A stretch of 64,000 bases of DNA, from contig NZ_CP031305.1 in the NCBI RefSeq assembly GCF_004799645.1, forward strand, positions 1,240,001 to 1,304,000, written 5' to 3'. A program made the position numbers and the translations under genes. This stretch comes from Natronorubrum bangense (GTDB lineage: Archaea > Halobacteriota > Halobacteria > Halobacteriales > Natrialbaceae). This document shows positions 9,415-55,920 of this stretch, piece after piece. Positions within the stretch are counted from its first letter, which is position 1. The number at the start of each line of letters is the position of its first letter. The notes beneath the pieces were generated by a model. That model worked only from the letters and a program-made list of their open reading frames with translations, was not told where the DNA came from and did not search any database.

Positions 9415-9471
9415 CAGTGCAGCTCCTCCGTGTTCGATGAGTTCGCGTTCATGGTGTGTGTTTGGCTACGC

Positions 9472-11094
9472 TCACTCGAGCAATAGTAGGCTGGGGTTCT
9501 CGAGGTACTCCATAACTGTGTTCGTAAACTGGGCGCCGACCGCGCCGTCGATCAGTCGGTGGTCGAACGACAGCGACAGCGTCAGGACGGATCGGGGTTC
9601 GATCGACTCCGCTCCCTCGTCGTCGGTCACCACGCGCGGTTTGCGCTTGATCTCGCCGATCGCCAAAATGCCGGCTTCGGGGTAGTTGATGACCGGCGTG
9701 GCGTACTCGCCGCCGATGCCGCCGACGTTGGTGATTGTAAACGTCGATCCCTGGAGTTCGTCGGGGCTGATCGTCCGCTCGCGGGCTTTCTGGACGAGTT
9801 CGTTCATCTCCGAAGAGAGCTGTAACAGCCCCTTCTCATCGGCGTCCTCGAGGACGGGCACCATCAGGCCGACGTCGGTCGCGGTGGCGACGCCGATATT
9901 GTAGTAATCGCGGTAGACGATTTCCTCGGCGTCTTCGTCGATGACCGCGTTCATCTCGGGATGCTCCTGGAGCGCCGCGACGACGGCTTTCATAATAAAC
10001 GGCATGTACGTCAGTCGAATGCCTTGCTCCTCAGCGCGCGCTTTGAGTTCTTCGCGGGTTGCGACGAGTGCGGTCACGTCCACCTCGTCGTGGTGGGTGA
10101 CGTGGGGTGCGCTGTATTTCGACTCGACCATCGCATCGGCAATCGTCTTACGGACGCCCCGGAACGGTTCGCGACGCTCGCGTTTGCCGGGAGCGAACTC
10201 GGCTTCGCTCGTTCCGACCGGGTCGCCCGCCGCTATGGCCTCCCTGTCGGCTTCCTGTGCCTGTCGCTGGGCGTCGGCGTACTCCCGGACCGCTTCAGGG
10301 GTAACGAACGCCTCGCCGTCGCGCTCCTCGGTCGCGGGGACGGCGTCGATGTCGACACCTTCCTCCTGTGCGATTCGACGGGTTGCCGGCGCGGCGAGAG
10401 TCGTCTCGCGGTCAGCAGAGTCGGTCCCTGCTTGCGGTTCGGTCGTCGTCTCGACCGGGCTGGTGGACTCGGCCGGTTGTCCCGACCCGCCGGCAGCCGC
10501 GGCGTCCGCAGCGCTCGAGTCCCCGGTTGGCGTTGGTTCCGCTACCGGCGCCTGTTCGTCCCTGGCGGGACCACCGCGGGCGGCGGCCCGAACGTCGGCT
10601 GCGGTGAGTCGGCCGCCCGGCCCGCTACTCTCTATACTCGAGAGATCGAGTCCCTCCTCGCGTGCCATGCGTCGCACGCGCGGGGGCGCGAAGACTCGGT
10701 CATCGAGTGTCTCGATTTCGTCGCCCTCGGTTCCGGTCGCATCGGGGCTGCCAGCGCCAGCGGTCTCCTCGGTGGCTTCACTGGCAGTGTCGTCGCTGGC
10801 GTCGGAGTCGCTCGCGGTTTCACCGCTCGGCGACTCCGAGGCGTGTGGCGCCTCGCCGTCGACGTTGAACGAGATGATGACCGTTCCAACGGGAACGACC
10901 GCGCCTTCTTCGACGTGCAACTCGCGGACGGTACCGTTGACCGGCGAGGGGATCTCGACGAGGGCCTTGTCGGTTTCGACCTCTGCAACTGGCTGGTCCT
11001 CCGAGACCGCATCGCCCTGCTCGACCAGCCACGAAACTAGTTCACCCTCTGCGACCCCTTCACCGACGTCGGGGAGTTCGAACTCTCTGACCAT
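9472..11094 (-). CDS. 2-oxoacid dehydrogenase complex E2 (dihydrolipoyl acyltransferase)
   Basis: E2 is the core of the complex and moves the acyl group from E1 to CoA on a swinging lipoyl arm. The 540 residues contain an N-terminal lipoyl domain (1-80, lipoyl-lysine K43 in ETDKA) and acidic linkers. Two peripheral-subunit-binding-like segments follow (about 134-172 and 232-275, both of the form APxxRRxAxEEGxD). A C-terminal acyltransferase domain ends with the active-site motif DHRLIDG. The ATG at 11094 gives the standard MVREFELPDVGEG start, one base after the stop of E1beta; a longer upstream frame is an extension into that gene. The second binding segment is unusual. Confidence 0.95.
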   Translation of the reverse strand: MVREFELPDVGEGVAEGELVSWLVEQGDAVSEDQPVAEVETDKALVEIPSPVNGTVRELHVEEGAVVPVGTVIISFNVDGEAPHASESPSGETASDSDASDDTASEATEETAGAGSPDATGTEGDEIETLDDRVFAPPRVRRMAREEGLDLSSIESSGPGGRLTAADVRAAARGGPARDEQAPVAEPTPTGDSSAADAAAAGGSGQPAESTSPVETTTEPQAGTDSADRETTLAAPATRRIAQEEGVDIDAVPATEERDGEAFVTPEAVREYADAQRQAQEADREAIAAGDPVGTSEAEFAPGKRERREPFRGVRKTIADAMVESKYSAPHVTHHDEVDVTALVATREELKARAEEQGIRLTYMPFIMKAVVAALQEHPEMNAVIDEDAEEIVYRDYYNIGVATATDVGLMVPVLEDADEKGLLQLSSEMNELVQKARERTISPDELQGSTFTITNVGGIGGEYATPVINYPEAGILAIGEIKRKPRVVTDDEGAESIEPRSVLTLSLSFDHRLIDGAVGAQFTNTVMEYLENPSLLLLE

Positions 11095-19266: not shown

Positions 19267-19863
19267 CTAGCCAAACACCTCGCCGCGGCGCTCGTGGACC
19301 ATCAGGTCGGCGACTTCGGTCGCGATATCCGCGCCGAACTCCCGTTCGACGAGCCACAGCGCCAGATCGATGCCGGAGGTGACCCCGCCCGCGGACAGCA
19401 CGTCGCCGTCGTCGACGACTCGCTCGTCGACCACCCGTCCGGCGTGGGCCTCGAGGTCGTCCACGGCGACGGGATGGGTTGCAGCAGGTCGACCCTCGAG
19501 CAGCCCCGCTTCGGCAAGGATCATCGCACCGGTACAGACCGACGCGACTGTCGCCCCTTCGGTATAGCAGTTATCGACCGCATCGGGTAAGACACCGTCC
19601 TCGACAGCCGCTCGAGCACCCTCCGTCGGCGTCGTCCAGCCGCCGCCGGGGACGAGCAGGATGTCAGGCTCGCCGAGCGTTCCCTGCGGTTCGACGCGCA
19701 GGTCGTGGCTGGCAGTGACGAGATCGGTTTCCTCGAGCGTGACCAGAAACGTCTCGAGGGACGCGCCGAACTGGGCTGCGTTTTCGAACACTTCGTAGGG
19801 ACCGATGGCATCGAGTTCGTCGAAGCCGTCGAACAGCACGATTTCCGCAGTCGTCTCGACCAT
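19267..19863 (-). CDS. DJ-1/PfpI family protein
   Basis: The 198 residues match the class I glutamine-amidotransferase-like fold of the DJ-1/PfpI family. The nucleophile elbow is ASVCTGAM with C110, followed by H130 in AATHP, and the acidic residue is near E17 in FDELDAIGPYEVF. The last pattern is close to the ThiJ-like isonitrile hydratase/AraC-associated branch. Possible activities include isonitrile hydratase or a chaperone/glyoxalase function; the sequence does not decide. It stands alone. Confidence 0.85.
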   Translation of the reverse strand: MVETTAEIVLFDGFDELDAIGPYEVFENAAQFGASLETFLVTLEETDLVTASHDLRVEPQGTLGEPDILLVPGGGWTTPTEGARAAVEDGVLPDAVDNCYTEGATVASVCTGAMILAEAGLLEGRPAATHPVAVDDLEAHAGRVVDERVVDDGDVLSAGGVTSGIDLALWLVEREFGADIATEVADLMVHERRGEVFG

Positions 19864-20131
19864 GTTCGGTTGTCACGGGCGGTGGGGAAATTCGTTGTGC
19901 TTAGTTATCTCGTGCCACGGACGACTACCATCGTGGTGGCGAGCGCGCCCGCGGTGGATCACCGACGGTCGTCGCGACGGCGTGGCACACCGGTTCGATC
20001 CCGTTCCAACCGTGTCAAACGGGAGCCAAAGCAACGAAAACGTCCCGAGAAACGGATGCAAACCGTCGAAAACCGCGTTCACGGCATCCCCCCTTCAAGT
20101 CGGTCGAGCCACCCAGGATCGGATGCACGCT

Positions 20132-20683
20132 ATGAACCGAACAACGCTCATCGCAGCCGTCTTCGCGGTACTGATCGTGGCGACCGGATTCGTCGCCGCC
20201 GCACCAGGAAACGCACCCGTGTCCGTGGACGCAGACGCGGACAGTGCCGACGACTCACAGGCCGAGTACGCAAACGAACACGCAGCCGACGCTGAGAACG
20301 CGAACGAACGCGACGCTAATAACGCAAACGAGGCCGCTGACAACAGCGCCGCCGACGAACGGAACGGACAGGGACCGAACGTCGATCTCCCTGACCAGGT
20401 TCCCGATCACGTCTCCGCGATCCACGAGCGGATTTCCTCGTTCCTGAGCGGTGCTCTCGAGAGCCCGCTCGGTGACGCGGTTAGCGAAGTGACGCCGGAC
20501 GACGAGAGCGCTGACGACAGCGACGAGGCTGTTGACGGTGACGACGGCGCCGACGAGGCTGTTGACGGTGACGACGGCGCCGACGAGGCTGACGACGCTA
20601 GCGAAGCTGACGACGACAACGACGACTCGCAGGCGACCGAAGACGCTGACGACGACGGAGACGAATCGGACAACGACGAATAA
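20132..20683 (+). CDS. Small secreted acidic protein with shared module
   Basis: I do not recognise a named family. The 183 residues start with a signal peptide (1-24, AVLIVATGFVAAA), followed by an Asp/Asn/Glu-rich low-complexity region (30-80). A compact module lies at 82-122 (LPDQVPDHVSAIHERISSF) and a very acidic tail at 123-183. The module recurs in the 82-residue protein at 21307, with 19 or so identities over 43 positions. The tail contains an exact 30-bp tandem duplication (20521-20580). The ATG at 20132 is chosen because the signal peptide follows directly; another lies at 20123. Probably exported and located at the cell surface. Confidence 0.7.
   Translation: MNRTTLIAAVFAVLIVATGFVAAAPGNAPVSVDADADSADDSQAEYANEHAADAENANERDANNANEAADNSAADERNGQGPNVDLPDQVPDHVSAIHERISSFLSGALESPLGDAVSEVTPDDESADDSDEAVDGDDGADEAVDGDDGADEADDASEADDDNDDSQATEDADDDGDESDNDE
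20521..20580 (+). repeat. Exact 30-bp tandem duplication in coding sequence
   Basis: Two identical 30-bp units (20521-20550 and 20551-20580) encode the decapeptide DEAVDGDDGA twice and are followed by a 10-bp partial third unit. Identity at third codon positions points to a recent slippage event. Confidence 0.9.
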
Positions 20684-31587: not shown

Positions 31588-32781
31588 CTATCCCAGGACG
31601 GCGAAAATCACGATGTAGCCGACGTAGGAAATGACAACCGAGCCGACGAGCGATGCGACCCATGCGAGGACAGTATACCCCATCTTACGGGCGCTGACAC
31701 CACCACCAGCGCCGGCTGCAGCGTACCCGCTGCCGATGATCGCACTGACGATAATTTCGTTAAACGAAACCGGAATGCCGTACAGCACTGCCGTCTGTGC
31801 GATCATAAACGAGGGAATAAGTGCGGCGATCGACCGGCGTGGTCCAAGCGAGGAGTAGTCCTGTGAGATCGCCTTGATCATCCGCGGCGCGCCGGTCCAC
31901 GACCCCAGCAAGAGCCCGAAGCCGCCACCAACGAGCAGGGCAAGGAGTGGCAGGCCAACGTCACCCGACAGCGGGATCAGCGGGCCAACTGCCAGTCCGA
32001 CCTGACTCCCACCCGCGGAGAACGCGACCAGTCCGCCGAGGACGAGCAGGAAGTGGCGTTCACCGCGTTCGATATCGCCTCGCAAGTCGAACCCAGTCAC
32101 CCCCGCCCAGAGCGCCGCGATGACGACCGTCACTGCGGCGACACCAGCGATATCGGGGCCGGGAAGCCAGCCACTCGAGGCCTCGGCGATCGACGCCCCG
32201 CCGCCAGCTCCGGAGCCGAGGATCGCGAACTCGATGTTGGCGACGACGATGCCGATCAGCGCTGCGAGCATCATGATGAGATACTCTTCGGCGATCGGTT
32301 TACTCCGCAGCAGGCGGGCGATCCCGTAGGCGAGTCCGCCGCCGACGAACGGCGTCAGAATCCAGAGGGTGGCGATCTCCTGATATTTCGCCCATGCTGG
32401 ATCGCCGCCCATCGCGAGCCCAACGCCGATCACCGCTCCGGTAACGGTAAAGGCAGTCGCGATCGGATACCCCGCGAAGACGCCGATCGCGACCAGTCCG
32501 GCTGCGATAATCAGGGCGATCGTCGCCGCCATCGGCGACAGCGTCACGCCGCCGATCAGGTCGGCACCGACGGCCTCGGAGACGTTTGCACCCTGCAAAA
32601 CGGCCCCAGCAAAGCCGAGAATACCAACGAGAAATCCAGCCCGCATCACCGATATCGCGTTCGCACCAACGGCCGGTGCAAACGGAGTCGACCCGCTCGA
32701 GCCAGCACCGATCGCCCAGGCCATGAACAGACTGGCCACTGCAGCCACCAGAAACGTCCCGATCGTCACGAGCTCGACCAT
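31588..32781 (-). CDS. Pit-type inorganic phosphate permease
   Basis: A 397-residue member of the PiT family, which transports phosphate driven by a proton or sodium gradient. About ten to eleven membrane helices are visible in two halves that start with GANAISVMRAGFLVG-like and VTGFDLRG blocks. The loop between them is short. The family GANDVANA signature is degenerate here (GANAISVMRAG), unlike in some Pit proteins. Two further Pit-type genes are encoded at 51839 and 54739; this copy is clearly more distant from them than they are from each other. Confidence 0.85.
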   Translation of the reverse strand: MVELVTIGTFLVAAVASLFMAWAIGAGSSGSTPFAPAVGANAISVMRAGFLVGILGFAGAVLQGANVSEAVGADLIGGVTLSPMAATIALIIAAGLVAIGVFAGYPIATAFTVTGAVIGVGLAMGGDPAWAKYQEIATLWILTPFVGGGLAYGIARLLRSKPIAEEYLIMMLAALIGIVVANIEFAILGSGAGGGASIAEASSGWLPGPDIAGVAAVTVVIAALWAGVTGFDLRGDIERGERHFLLVLGGLVAFSAGGSQVGLAVGPLIPLSGDVGLPLLALLVGGGFGLLLGSWTGAPRMIKAISQDYSSLGPRRSIAALIPSFMIAQTAVLYGIPVSFNEIIVSAIIGSGYAAAGAGGGVSARKMGYTVLAWVASLVGSVVISYVGYIVIFAVLG

Positions 32782-32954
32782 CTATTCCGCCTTTCCAGCT
32801 AGCCCTACAAGTGTGTGCCGACCTTCGACTGTCGTGTCGGGTGCCGACCTTCGACTGTCGTGTCGGATACCGACCACTCGACGTGGGATCATGAGCCGCG
32901 ACCGGGGGCGATCAGTATCCACACCACACCCGCAGTGTGGGCGTGGACTGTCAC

Positions 32955-51838: not shown

Positions 51839-53002
51839 ATGGTCGAAACCGTTCTACTCGTCGGAGTTATTGCGTCGATTTTCGTTGGCTTCAATATCGG
51901 CGGGTCATCGACCGGGATCGCGTGGGGACCAGCCGTGGGGGCCGGTCTCCTTGGAAAAGCCACGGCCGCCGCACTGATGACGTTCTTCGTCTTTCTCGGC
52001 GGCTGGACCGTTGGCCGGAATGTGATGGATACCCTCAGCGGCGACATCATCGCGATCGAAATCTCGCTTGCGGCTGGCGTCGCCGTCCTCTTTTTCATCG
52101 GGATGGGAATTCTCATCGCGAACGTCTTCGGCGTCCCCGTCCCGACGTCGATGACGACTGTTGGGGCGATCGCGGGACTGGGACTGGCGACGGACACGCT
52201 CAACTTCGAGACAATCGGGTGGATCGTCTCGTGGTGGATCGTCACCCCGATCCTCGCGCTCTGGATCGGTGCGACCGTCGGACGGTATATTTATCCCGAA
52301 CTCAACCGCCGGTTCGAGATCAGTGCCTCGGAGGGCCCGTTGCTCGGGCTGGATCGCAGCGGCTCAGTTCCGAAACCGGCGCTCGGACCGAACACCACGT
52401 ACCAGGAACTCGGCGGGACGGTAACCGTCCTTGTCATCGGCTGTTACATGGCGTTTAGCGCCGGTGCGAGCAACGTCCCGAACGCGGTCGCCCCGCTGGT
52501 CAGCAGCGGCGCACTCGAGATCAACACCGCCATCATCGTCGCGACGGTCGCGATCGGGCTCGGCGGCTTTACCATCGCTCGACGGACGATGGAGTCCGTT
52601 GGCAGCGAACTCAGCGATATCCCGCTGCTGGCAGCACTGATCGTCATGATCACCGCCTCGACGATCACGACCGCACTCTCGTGGGCCGGCATTCCGATCA
52701 GTCTCGTGATGGCATCGGTGATGACGATCGTCGGCCTGGGCTGGGGACGAGCGACCCGTCCCGTGACGGCTCGAGAGGCCGTTCGTGGGGACGTCGACAC
52801 GGAGATGACGATGGGGGCACTGAAGGCAGAACCGGACGCGCCAATCACACAGATCGGCGAGGAAGAGTCCGATGAGGCTCTGAGTGCCGATAACCTCTTT
52901 AACCCGCGAGCGATCATGAAGTACGTCTCGATGTGGATCATCGGCCCGTCGATGTCGACGTTGCTCGCCTACGGGTTCTTCATTGCAGTCCCGTTCGTCT
53001 GA
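51839..53002 (+). CDS. Pit-type inorganic phosphate permease
   Basis: A 387-residue low-affinity phosphate permease with about ten helices. N-terminal block: VGFNIGGSSTGIAWGPAVGA; second-half block: MAFSAGASNVPNAVAPL. A central cytoplasmic loop (about 150-190) carries RFEISASEGPLLGLDRSG, and a hydrophilic loop of 40 residues precedes the final helix. It is about equally long and closely similar to the copy at 54739. The universal stress protein gene starts 41 nt after its stop, so the two may be co-transcribed. Confidence 0.92.
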   Translation: MVETVLLVGVIASIFVGFNIGGSSTGIAWGPAVGAGLLGKATAAALMTFFVFLGGWTVGRNVMDTLSGDIIAIEISLAAGVAVLFFIGMGILIANVFGVPVPTSMTTVGAIAGLGLATDTLNFETIGWIVSWWIVTPILALWIGATVGRYIYPELNRRFEISASEGPLLGLDRSGSVPKPALGPNTTYQELGGTVTVLVIGCYMAFSAGASNVPNAVAPLVSSGALEINTAIIVATVAIGLGGFTIARRTMESVGSELSDIPLLAALIVMITASTITTALSWAGIPISLVMASVMTIVGLGWGRATRPVTAREAVRGDVDTEMTMGALKAEPDAPITQIGEEESDEALSADNLFNPRAIMKYVSMWIIGPSMSTLLAYGFFIAVPFV

Positions 53003-53043
53003 GAGTCCACCGCGTTTATTCACGCCGATGTCGTAACTACCGT

Positions 53044-53469
53044 ATGATTTCACGCGTTCTCGTTCCGATGGACGGCTCCGAAATGAGCGAACACGCCCTC
53101 GAGTACGCCCTCGAGGCCTATCCAACAGCCGAGATAACCGTCCTGCGCGTCGTCGGCGAGCCGTCTCCGCTGTGGGGAGAGGCGTCGGGCCTCGCACTTG
53201 CCGAGGACTTCGAGGAGGCCGCACAGGACCTTGCAGCGTCGACGTTCGAGCGTGCACGTGAACTCGTCGCCGACGCTGAGGGCGACGCGGACCTCGAGAC
53301 CATCATCGAACTCGGACATCCCGTCCGAGCGATCGTCAACCGAGCTGACGACTACGATACGGTTGTGGTCGGGAGCCATGGCGGAACCGTCGCAGATAAC
53401 CTCTACGTCGGCAACGTCGCCAAGAAGGTCGTCCATCAGTCGCCGACTCCGGTCGTGGTCGTTCGATGA
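53044..53469 (+). CDS. Universal stress protein (UspA family)
   Basis: A 141-residue UspA fold. The N-terminal VLVPMDGSEMSEHALEYAL carries the first strand and nucleotide site. The usual ATP-binding loop G-2x-G-9x-G is present as VVGSHGGTVADNLYVGNVAKKVV, and the C terminus is PTPVVVVR. It follows the phosphate permease closely, and USPs are often found next to transporters in haloarchaea. A regulatory role on the permease is an inference. Confidence 0.92.
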   Translation: MISRVLVPMDGSEMSEHALEYALEAYPTAEITVLRVVGEPSPLWGEASGLALAEDFEEAAQDLAASTFERARELVADAEGDADLETIIELGHPVRAIVNRADDYDTVVVGSHGGTVADNLYVGNVAKKVVHQSPTPVVVVR

Positions 53470-53629: not shown

Positions 53630-54409
53630 TCAGCTGTCGTCGGTGCGCTCGGTCTTCTCGTCGTCGGTTCGTTCCGCTTGCTCGTTGTCAGCAGATCGGT
53701 CAATTAACTCCTCGACTTCGTCCTCTCGAGGACGGCGATCGATCCGCTCGTCGACGGCTTCGACTTCGGCTTGCATTTCGTCGAGGTGTTTGCCAACGGT
53801 TCGCTCGACGGCCTCTTCGACGGTTTCGCCGACCTTCTTTTCGACTGTCTCGCTGACCGTCTCCTCGACGGTTTCGCCGACCTTCTCTTCGACCGTCTCC
53901 CCAACGCTTTCCTCGACTGTCTCGCCGACCGTCTTCTCGACCGTCTCCCCAACGCTTTCCTCGACTGTCTCGCCGACTGTCTTCTCGACCGTCTCGCTGA
54001 CGCTCTCCTCGACGGTTTCGCCGACCTTCTCTTCGACCGTTTCGCCCACGCTCTTTTCGACCGTTTCGCCGACCTTCTCTTCGACTGTCTCCCCAACGCT
54101 CTTTTCGACCGTTTCGCCGACTTTCTTCTCGACCGTCTCTCCAACGCTCTTTTCAACGGTTTCGCCGACCGTCTTCTCGACTGTTTCGTCCATGCTTTCC
54201 TCGACCGATTCCTGGACGGCCTTGGTCATCCAGTCGGGATCGAAGCGCGCCATCTTCCAGACGACGTGGATGACGTACGAGGCGAACACACCGATCCCGA
54301 ACGCGATCCCGACGTTCGTTCCGACCATCATAATGAGCACGATCGAGAGGGCGATCAACGCCCCATACGCGATGTCGACGGCTGCGTCGACCCGGACCGG
54401 GTTCAGCAC
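53630..54409 (-). CDS. Membrane protein with long octapeptide-repeat stalk
   Basis: The 259 residues comprise two N-terminal membrane helices (about 10-32 and 35-52), then an array of 15 clear octapeptides (81-200) with consensus VGETVEKS/VGETVEEK, flanked by three degenerate units. A charged C-terminal segment follows (EVEAVDERIDRRPREDEVEELIDRS) with an Asp/Glu-rich end. Valines recur every four residues, so the array should form a long charged helix with one hydrophobic stripe. The start is GTG. The opposite strand is also open across the repeat, but only because the repeat lacks stops. Function unknown. Confidence 0.75.
   Translation of the reverse strand: MLNPVRVDAAVDIAYGALIALSIVLIMMVGTNVGIAFGIGVFASYVIHVVWKMARFDPDWMTKAVQESVEESMDETVEKTVGETVEKSVGETVEKKVGETVEKSVGETVEEKVGETVEKSVGETVEEKVGETVEESVSETVEKTVGETVEESVGETVEKTVGETVEESVGETVEEKVGETVEETVSETVEKKVGETVEEAVERTVGKHLDEMQAEVEAVDERIDRRPREDEVEELIDRSADNEQAERTDDEKTERTDDS
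53810..54169 (-). repeat. Array of fifteen 24-bp coding repeats
   Basis: Fifteen consecutive 24-bp units encode the octapeptide VGETVExx. Units differ mainly at the last codon pair (KS, KK, EK, ES, KT, ET, EA), and two carry VS for VG. Degenerate units continue on both sides (53786-53809 and 54170-54217). There are no spacers, so this is not a CRISPR array. Confidence 0.93.
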
Positions 54410-54738
54410 GGATGACCGCCACCGAAACGCGCAGATTGGACGGTTTGTACGTGTTCATCGACAGGGTCAGTTCCGGCGCACTGGCGTGTCGTTCCAGTTC
54501 GCCCCTGACAGTTTCTCGAGACGAGTTTCCAGTCGGAGTACATGATACTGTAATCCAGGGTGTGACTGTTGAAGTCATTTAGGATCGAGCCCTCTCGTGG
54601 ACGCCCGTCCGGCGGACACGTCTCCGTGACGATCCCGAAGAGACGGCGAGGAACTCGAGCGACGACCGAACCGAACTCGGTCGGCAGTCGTCGCCACAAA
54701 TAGGCGCGTTTTTACGGATTGAGGATGTGCGTAGTGGT
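54410..54738. other. Divergent intergenic region
   Basis: It separates the octapeptide-repeat gene (minus) from the second Pit permease (plus). It must contain both promoters. TTTTTACGGATTGAGG (about 54709-54725) lies before the permease start. No gene-like frame is recognisable. Confidence 0.4.
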
Positions 54739-55920
54739 GTGACAGAAGTACTGCTTATTGTGGGGCTTCTCGTTGCGGTGTTCGTTGGCTACAATATCGG
54801 CGGCGCAACAACTGGACCCGCGTTCGGGCCGGCCGTTGGTGCCAACGTGATCACGAAACTGATGGCCGCAGCACTGATGTCGATCTTTTTCTTCCTCGGT
54901 GCGATCACCATCGGTCCGCAGGTCGTCGACACGCTCGGCCGTGAACTCGTCACCGACACCGACATCTTCACGATGCGTTCGAACGTCGCCGTCCTCTTTT
55001 TCATCGGCGGCGCGCTGTTCGTGGGCAACTACGCCGGAGTCCCCGCCTCGACCTCGATGACGGCGGTGGGGGCGATCGCCGCACTCGGCCTCGCGACCGG
55101 TGAGCTCAATCTCGCAATCTTGGGCGAGATCGTCATCTGGTGGATCGTGGCCCCGATCATCGGCTTCTGGGTGGCCGGCATCGTCGGCCGTTACTTTTAC
55201 CCGCGAATCAACGCGTGGGTCGCCATCGAGGGCAACCGAGAGGGACGCGAGATGGTCACGATCGACCGCTCGGGCCTCGTTCCGCGACTCCAGTTTGGCG
55301 AGAACGCCGATCGGCGCGAGATTTCGGGTGCGCTCGTCGTCATCGGGATCGGCTGTCTGATGGCCTTTTCGTCGGGGACAAGCAACATCGCCAACGCCAT
55401 CGCTCCGATCTACGGCACCGGTGATATCGACATGATTCCCCTGATCCTGATCGGCTCTGTGGCCGTTACGATCGGCTGTTTCACGATCGCCCGTCGGACA
55501 CTCGATACACTCGGGAACGACATCACGAACCTCCCGCTGACCGCGGCGATCGTCGTCGCCGTCATCAGTTCTGGGATCGTTATCGGGCTCTCGTGGATCG
55601 GTATTCCCGCGAGTTTCGTCGTCATCGCGACGATGAGCATCATCGGGCTGGGCTGGGGACGAGCAACCCGGACGACGACGCTGTCGGAAGCCAAAGCCGG
55701 CGAAGAAACCAGAGTCTCCGTCGGCGCCTTGACCGCCGAAGAGGAGGGCGAACGCTCACCCAGAATCGGTGAGGAAGAACCACAAGACATCCCGCAGGCC
55801 TCCGACCTCTTCGATCCCTCGACGACGGCTCGAGTCGTTCTGATGCAAAACGTTGTTCCGATCCTCTCGACGGTCGGTGCCTTTCTCACCTTCCGGTTCG
55901 TCCCGATATTCGGCTTCTGA
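54739..55920 (+). CDS. Pit-type inorganic phosphate permease
   Basis: A 393-residue paralogue of the protein at 51839. Blocks [20 protein letters not shown] and [17 protein letters not shown] correspond to those of the neighbour. I use the GTG at 54739 because the paralogue begins with the same MxEVLLxVG pattern; a GTG at 54727 is also in frame. The C-terminal loop with [21 protein letters not shown] parallels that of the neighbour. Confidence 0.91.

Follow-up and report, generated by a model that had tools for sequence, protein, structure and literature searches.

We describe a class-wide family of haloarchaeal membrane proteins, represented in Natronorubrum bangense by a protein of 259 residues, whose members probably act as dedicated accessory subunits of one clade of PiT-family permeases (clade 2). 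An N-terminal hairpin would dock on the permease, and a cytoplasmic tail would self-associate to cluster or regulate the permeases. Sequence comparisons reveal the family itself, its conservation, a tail with a hydrophobic period of four residues, a clade-specific partnership with the permeases and frequent overlap between family stop codons and permease start codons; from these features we infer that the tail may form a helical rod on the cytoplasmic side, and that the protein may contact the permease physically and have a clustering or regulatory role.

A putative rod-tailed protein encoded between two PiT permease genes

The gene occupies positions 53630..54409 on the minus strand of the stretch of N. 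bangense DNA analysed here (64,000 nucleotides, hereafter the window; all coordinates are counted along its plus strand, and those of the gene are exact), and begins with a GTG start codon. As the preliminary description had placed it, the gene lies opposite to and between a Pit-UspA pair and a second Pit gene, converging on the former and diverging from the latter. The pair on the far-side flank consists of a clade-1 PiT-family permease gene (51839..53002, plus strand; PF01384, E=1.3e-39) and, directly 3' of it, a gene for a universal stress protein, Usp (53026..53469, plus strand; Pfam E=1e-23), whose ORF was read from 53026. On the other side is the gene of the proposed partner, a clade-2 PiT-family permease (54727..55920, plus strand; PF01384, E=2.1e-38). 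The divergent starts of the family gene and the clade-2 PiT gene are separated by a 317-bp intergenic region (54410..54726), presumably a promoter region shared by both genes; in almost every other divergent locus the spacing falls between 114 and 592 bp. The minus strand is the coding strand, since its GC content by codon position (0.67/0.34/0.77) is like that of the neighbouring genes. An ORF on the opposite strand (53643-54545, plus strand) was rejected as coding, its values of 0.38/0.66/0.73 being unlike those of the neighbours.

From its N-terminus, the protein comprises a two-helix membrane hairpin (residues 1-62, LNPVRVDAAVDIAYG...WKMARFDPDWMT; 54224..54409, minus strand; delimited using alignment A1 and AlphaFold2), a period-4 tail of VxETVExx octads (residues 81-201; 53807..54169, minus strand) and a C-terminal segment with an acidic end (53630..53782, minus strand). 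This last segment, read from the sequences, carries the motif VDERIDRRPREDEVEEL, which is present in 27 relatives, including many Natrialbaceae members. AlphaFold2 modelling of residues 1-72 with 38 aligned sequences placed helices at 4-28 and 31-56 with a mean pLDDT of 87.6, in line with the two membrane helices that had been proposed to precede the array. The array had been described as fifteen VGETVExx octads; there are indeed fifteen octads of the form VxETVExx, but only 13 are strictly VGETVE, and two carry SETVE.

Several other features of the window are recorded here as separate observations. A further ORF (31588-32781, minus strand; 397 aa) is PiT-like by eye. A 26-bp direct repeat, GTGCCGACCTTCGACTGTCGTGTCGG, is present in 2.3 copies (32815-32875) that begin 34 bp upstream of the start of this ORF, and is possibly a regulatory element. 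The ORF at 19805-20683 (plus strand) contains an acidic D/E/A-rich tandem repeat (20482-20625) and has an apparent internal start with a signal-like segment.

A conserved family found throughout the Halobacteria

Searches with the hairpin alignment detected homologues in 271 of 392 Halobacteria genomes, representing 69 of 86 genera, and no family member outside the Halobacteria in a sample of the whole phylum. The preliminary description had recommended looking for such repeats in other haloarchaea, and had staked its reading on the existence of homologues with the same architecture, which clearly do exist. Its remark that no family of this kind was known holds for Pfam, NCBIfam and PDB, although the homologues are widespread: the hairpin alone gave no passing match in Pfam or NCBIfam, and sequence searches of the PDB returned nothing significant, whether the query was the hairpin profile or the array. 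Matches of the whole protein in Pfam and NCBIfam (DUF2884, Cornifin, DUF445, EcsC, YTV, NF033849 and GvpQ) were of low complexity and below the cut-off, and were rejected. Foldseek detected no structural match to the hairpin with an E-value under 2, and our literature searches found no papers on the family, which is annotated as 'hypothetical protein' wherever annotation was seen, including in plasmid records. In some Natrialbaceae (L107, at 5001 and 9446-9832; L079; L080), a second, shorter copy lies beside its own clade-2-type PiT gene, forming a paralogous pair.

The hairpin aligns across 38 divergent members, in which 17 of its positions are invariant (D8, D12, Y15, G16, F37, G40, Y45, H48, W51, K52, M53, R55, F56, D57, W60, M61 and T62), a degree of conservation well beyond that required of a simple membrane anchor. 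Purifying selection acts on the N-terminal domain: pN is 0.02-0.06 and pS 0.14-0.45 between the window protein and its relatives, and for most pairs pN is roughly one tenth of pS. The nearest named relative, from N. thiooxidans, is 91% identical over the first 81 residues.

A tail with a hydrophobic period of four residues

In the tail of the window protein, V, I, L or M residues stand exactly four apart over an unbroken run of 36 intervals, and the valine that had been noted at every fourth residue proves to be general among its relatives: in the tails of 104 distinct relatives, 3193 of 3442 hydrophobic intervals equal 4 (93%, versus 10.7% in shuffled tails). The best Fourier period of the tails clusters at 3.9-4.0, and mean Fourier power is 25.6 at period 4.0 versus 0.58 at 3.5, the hydrophobic period of heptad coiled coils; the earlier view that this is no normal heptad is thus upheld. 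Nor does the window protein have the period of 3.67-3.8 that characterises right-handed coiled coils (11/3, 15/4), and a minority of relatives peak at 3.7-3.82.

Tail composition is rich in E, K, T and G. In the DNA of the array, Tandem Repeats Finder identified periods of 24, 48 and 144. The thirteen GETVE copies of the window protein are nevertheless encoded by nine different DNA sequences, and the repeat units differ at 61% of synonymous versus 11% of nonsynonymous sites. These mostly synonymous differences led us to reject recent DNA slippage as the origin of the array, and indicate that the protein repeat is held by selection.

Repeat number had been expected to vary, and between species it does. 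Complete ORFs encode 117-361 aa, with almost all of the difference lying in the tail, and the number of repeats differs even between near relatives. Tail length between fixed landmarks is only partly conserved modulo 4 or 8, owing to spacings of 3; modulo 4, a single class contains 15 of the 27. Most members hold a period of 4.0, and some relatives show a pentadecad pattern of 15-residue units, VEETVEEQVEGVQTQ, with spacings of 4, 4, 3 and 4. Two species of the window's own genus (L011 and L010) have these units instead of octads, so that the tail period changes within a single genus. We note that in fragmented assemblies (G003 and G007) the array falls at contig ends (L004, L012, L016 and L028), so that repeat number may be lost or wrong in some genomes.

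The stripe had also been taken to predict a long helical rod. A full-length AlphaFold model is indeed helical, with a long helix at 77-224, but its confidence is low (pLDDT 53.5), and a 4.0 stripe matches no established structure within published limits. Coiled coils can adopt periodicities of about 3.3 to 3.8 and reach their limit at roughly 3.8-3.9 (PMC4786415), short of 4.0 residues per turn. Along a straight alpha-helix (3.63 residues per turn) every fourth residue drifts by about 37 degrees per step, so that one full circuit of the stripe around the helix takes roughly 39 residues (about 59 Å). To follow the stripe, a coiled coil would need a right-handed twist far tighter than that of any known example. 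This leaves a distorted helix, packing by a subset of the valines, or a tail that forms no coiled coil. A hydrophobic stripe with a period above 3.63 is also present in right-handed coiled coils (hendecad 11/3, pentadecad 15/4 and, in YadA, a local 19/5 = 3.8). Their pentadecad pattern is matched by the 15-residue units of some relatives, whereas the window protein keeps to 4.0 throughout its run of 36 intervals. No publication on period-4 coiled coils emerged from our literature searches. It is conceivable, if rather doubtful, that the tails build a new kind of protein fibre, helical and right-handed, whose 4.0 or nearly 4.0 residues per turn would exceed the accepted limit for coiled coils and which would serve as a cytoplasmic rod of adjustable length, clustering or gating the transporter.

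The same data bear on an alternative in which only the hairpin is functional and the tail is an acidic tether, either disordered or a single helix, that crowds the permease or brings in a soluble cytoplasmic partner such as the neighbouring Usp. The wide range of protein lengths, the differences in repeat number between near relatives, the low confidence of the full-length model, the E-, K-, T- and G-rich composition and the incompatibility of a 4.0 periodicity with known coiled coils would all suit a tether of this kind. However, a mere tether needs neither a spacing of 4 that is kept in 93% of intervals class-wide while the intervening residues change, nor repeat units that are conserved at nonsynonymous and not at synonymous sites, and we regard this alternative as unlikely.

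The family is linked to one clade of PiT permeases

A PiT gene lies within about 1-2 kb of the family gene in 31 of 40 sampled loci, which were drawn from many genera and, all but one, from outside the window's family (Natrialbaceae); nearly all fetched Natrialbaceae loci also have a PiT neighbour. The two genes occur in same-strand, divergent and convergent arrangements, and plasmid copies likewise hold the family gene together with a PiT gene. In 25 same-strand loci, corresponding to about 18 distinct genomes after duplicates were merged, the end of the family gene and the beginning of the PiT gene overlap by 4 or 1 bases at their stop and start codons (as in ...gattgATG and ...accgATGaca), and the family gene appears often to be translationally coupled to the PiT gene. 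Any view of the family gene as mainly an expression device, which sets PiT dosage through such coupling and whose product matters little, would account for these overlaps, but is highly improbable given the strong constraint on the N-terminal sequence (pN about a tenth of pS, 17 invariant residues) and the retention of the gene in genomes where the arrangement is divergent or unlinked.

In a tree of 149 PiT proteins, the linked permeases fall largely within one clade of 71 (clade 2; support 99), of which 65 are encoded adjacent to a family gene and 2 nearby, 3 come from genomes with the family gene elsewhere and 1 from a genome without the family. PiT genes of other clades are mostly not adjacent to a family gene, the exception being the clade-1 PiT gene, which flanks the family gene on its far side in most of the Natrialbaceae loci retrieved and in two non-Natrialbaceae loci. 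Outside the Natrialbaceae, 161 genomes have both the family and a clade-2-like PiT, 20 the family only, 10 the PiT only and 100 neither (Fisher p=4e-45); since this test ignores kinship and an E-value threshold stands in for clade 2, more weight belongs to the tree and to the 10 genera with mixed presence, in which the family and the clade-2-like PiT switch cleanly together.

The pairing is not obligatory: outside the Natrialbaceae, a clade-2-like PiT occurs in about ten genomes that lack the family, a result unchanged when eight of these were searched again with lenient settings, and some genomes with the family have only a distant PiT. The family gene is not beside a PiT gene in fetched loci from Halorubrum, Halovenus, Halosegnis, some Natrinema and Halostagnicola; loci without a PiT gene share no alternative conserved partner, showing only lineage-specific synteny (Halorubrum, the g56 group). 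These unlinked loci, and the few genomes with only a distant PiT, could be read as signs of a general membrane scaffold or envelope protein whose PiT neighbourhood stems from common descent and is functionally meaningless. This is very unlikely in view of the adjacency in three orientations and on plasmids, with overlapping stop and start codons, and of the fact that family presence tracks clade 2 even where the genes are unlinked, as in Halorubrum. The family thus combines the conserved gene linkage and the co-occurrence with a PiT permease that mark a PiT accessory protein. Adjacency, stop/start overlap and co-occurrence with one PiT clade lend strong support to the suggestion that the protein works for the flanking transporters, and the genomic comparisons make a dedicated partnership with the clade-2 permease very probable.

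The usual gene neighbour of Pit permeases is PhoU_div / DUF47 (PF01865), which, as proposed for the family protein, is a small helical accessory protein encoded in an operon with a PiT permease. PhoU_div is, however, a soluble helical bundle, whereas the family protein combines a membrane hairpin with a period-4 tail; the two have no sequence match, and PF01865 is not among the Pfam matches of the family protein. PF01865, the customary companion of archaeal PiT permeases, was not found in the window's genome, which speaks in favour of the family protein as accessory subunit there; it occurs in 28 of 145 Halobacteria genomes and is absent from the other 117. A switch between PhoU_div and the family is unsupported, several of the 28 PF01865 genomes also having the family.

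Substrate of the neighbouring permeases

The preliminary description called the flanking transporters phosphate permeases, a label that we now consider doubtful. In PiT phosphate transporters, conserved aspartates in two GANDVANA motifs are reported to be essential, and their loss marks CysP-like members, which are not thought to be phosphate carriers (PMC5840216). GAND occurs in 0 of the 149 haloarchaeal PiT proteins; it is because both aspartates are missing throughout that a phosphate role is in doubt. In place of GAND these proteins have NIGGxxTG and SSGTSN or SAGASN, and clade 2 carries fixed changes (P31, F55, G100, S216 and T218), several of them beside these motifs.

The best NCBIfam match of the two window PiT permeases is SulfPermCysPBac (NF053884), at 131.5 and 141.7 bits. 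The permeases are like CysP sulfate permeases in lacking the GAND aspartates in both halves, but their scores are far below the equivalog cut-off of 400 bits, and they are no established CysP. B. subtilis cysP is not known to have a family-like partner. That gene shares an operon with genes of sulfur metabolism (PMC5840216). Judging by their motifs, the permeases beside the family gene are unlikely to be canonical phosphate transporters, and sulfate or another oxyanion seems as likely a substrate as phosphate.

A proposed role for the family

In the accessory-subunit model that we favour, the two-helix hairpin would dock on the clade-2 permease within the membrane, and the acidic tail would point into the cytoplasm as a long helix. 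Both ends of the protein are likely to be cytoplasmic, because positive residues flank the hairpin (RVD before helix 1, KMAR after helix 2). Tail helices would then self-associate along the valine stripe, and the assembled rods would hold several permeases together, or else the assembly state of the rods would set permease activity.

These results suggest a role for a haloarchaeal family that spans the class and has so far been labelled 'hypothetical protein', and they point to an undescribed accessory subunit of a very common permease family. The haloarchaeal 'Pit phosphate transporters' themselves are without residues reported essential for phosphate transport, and their substrate deserves testing. 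Finally, the tails supply about a hundred natural sequences with a strict four-residue hydrophobic period, so that the highest periodicity open to helical assemblies can be tested directly.
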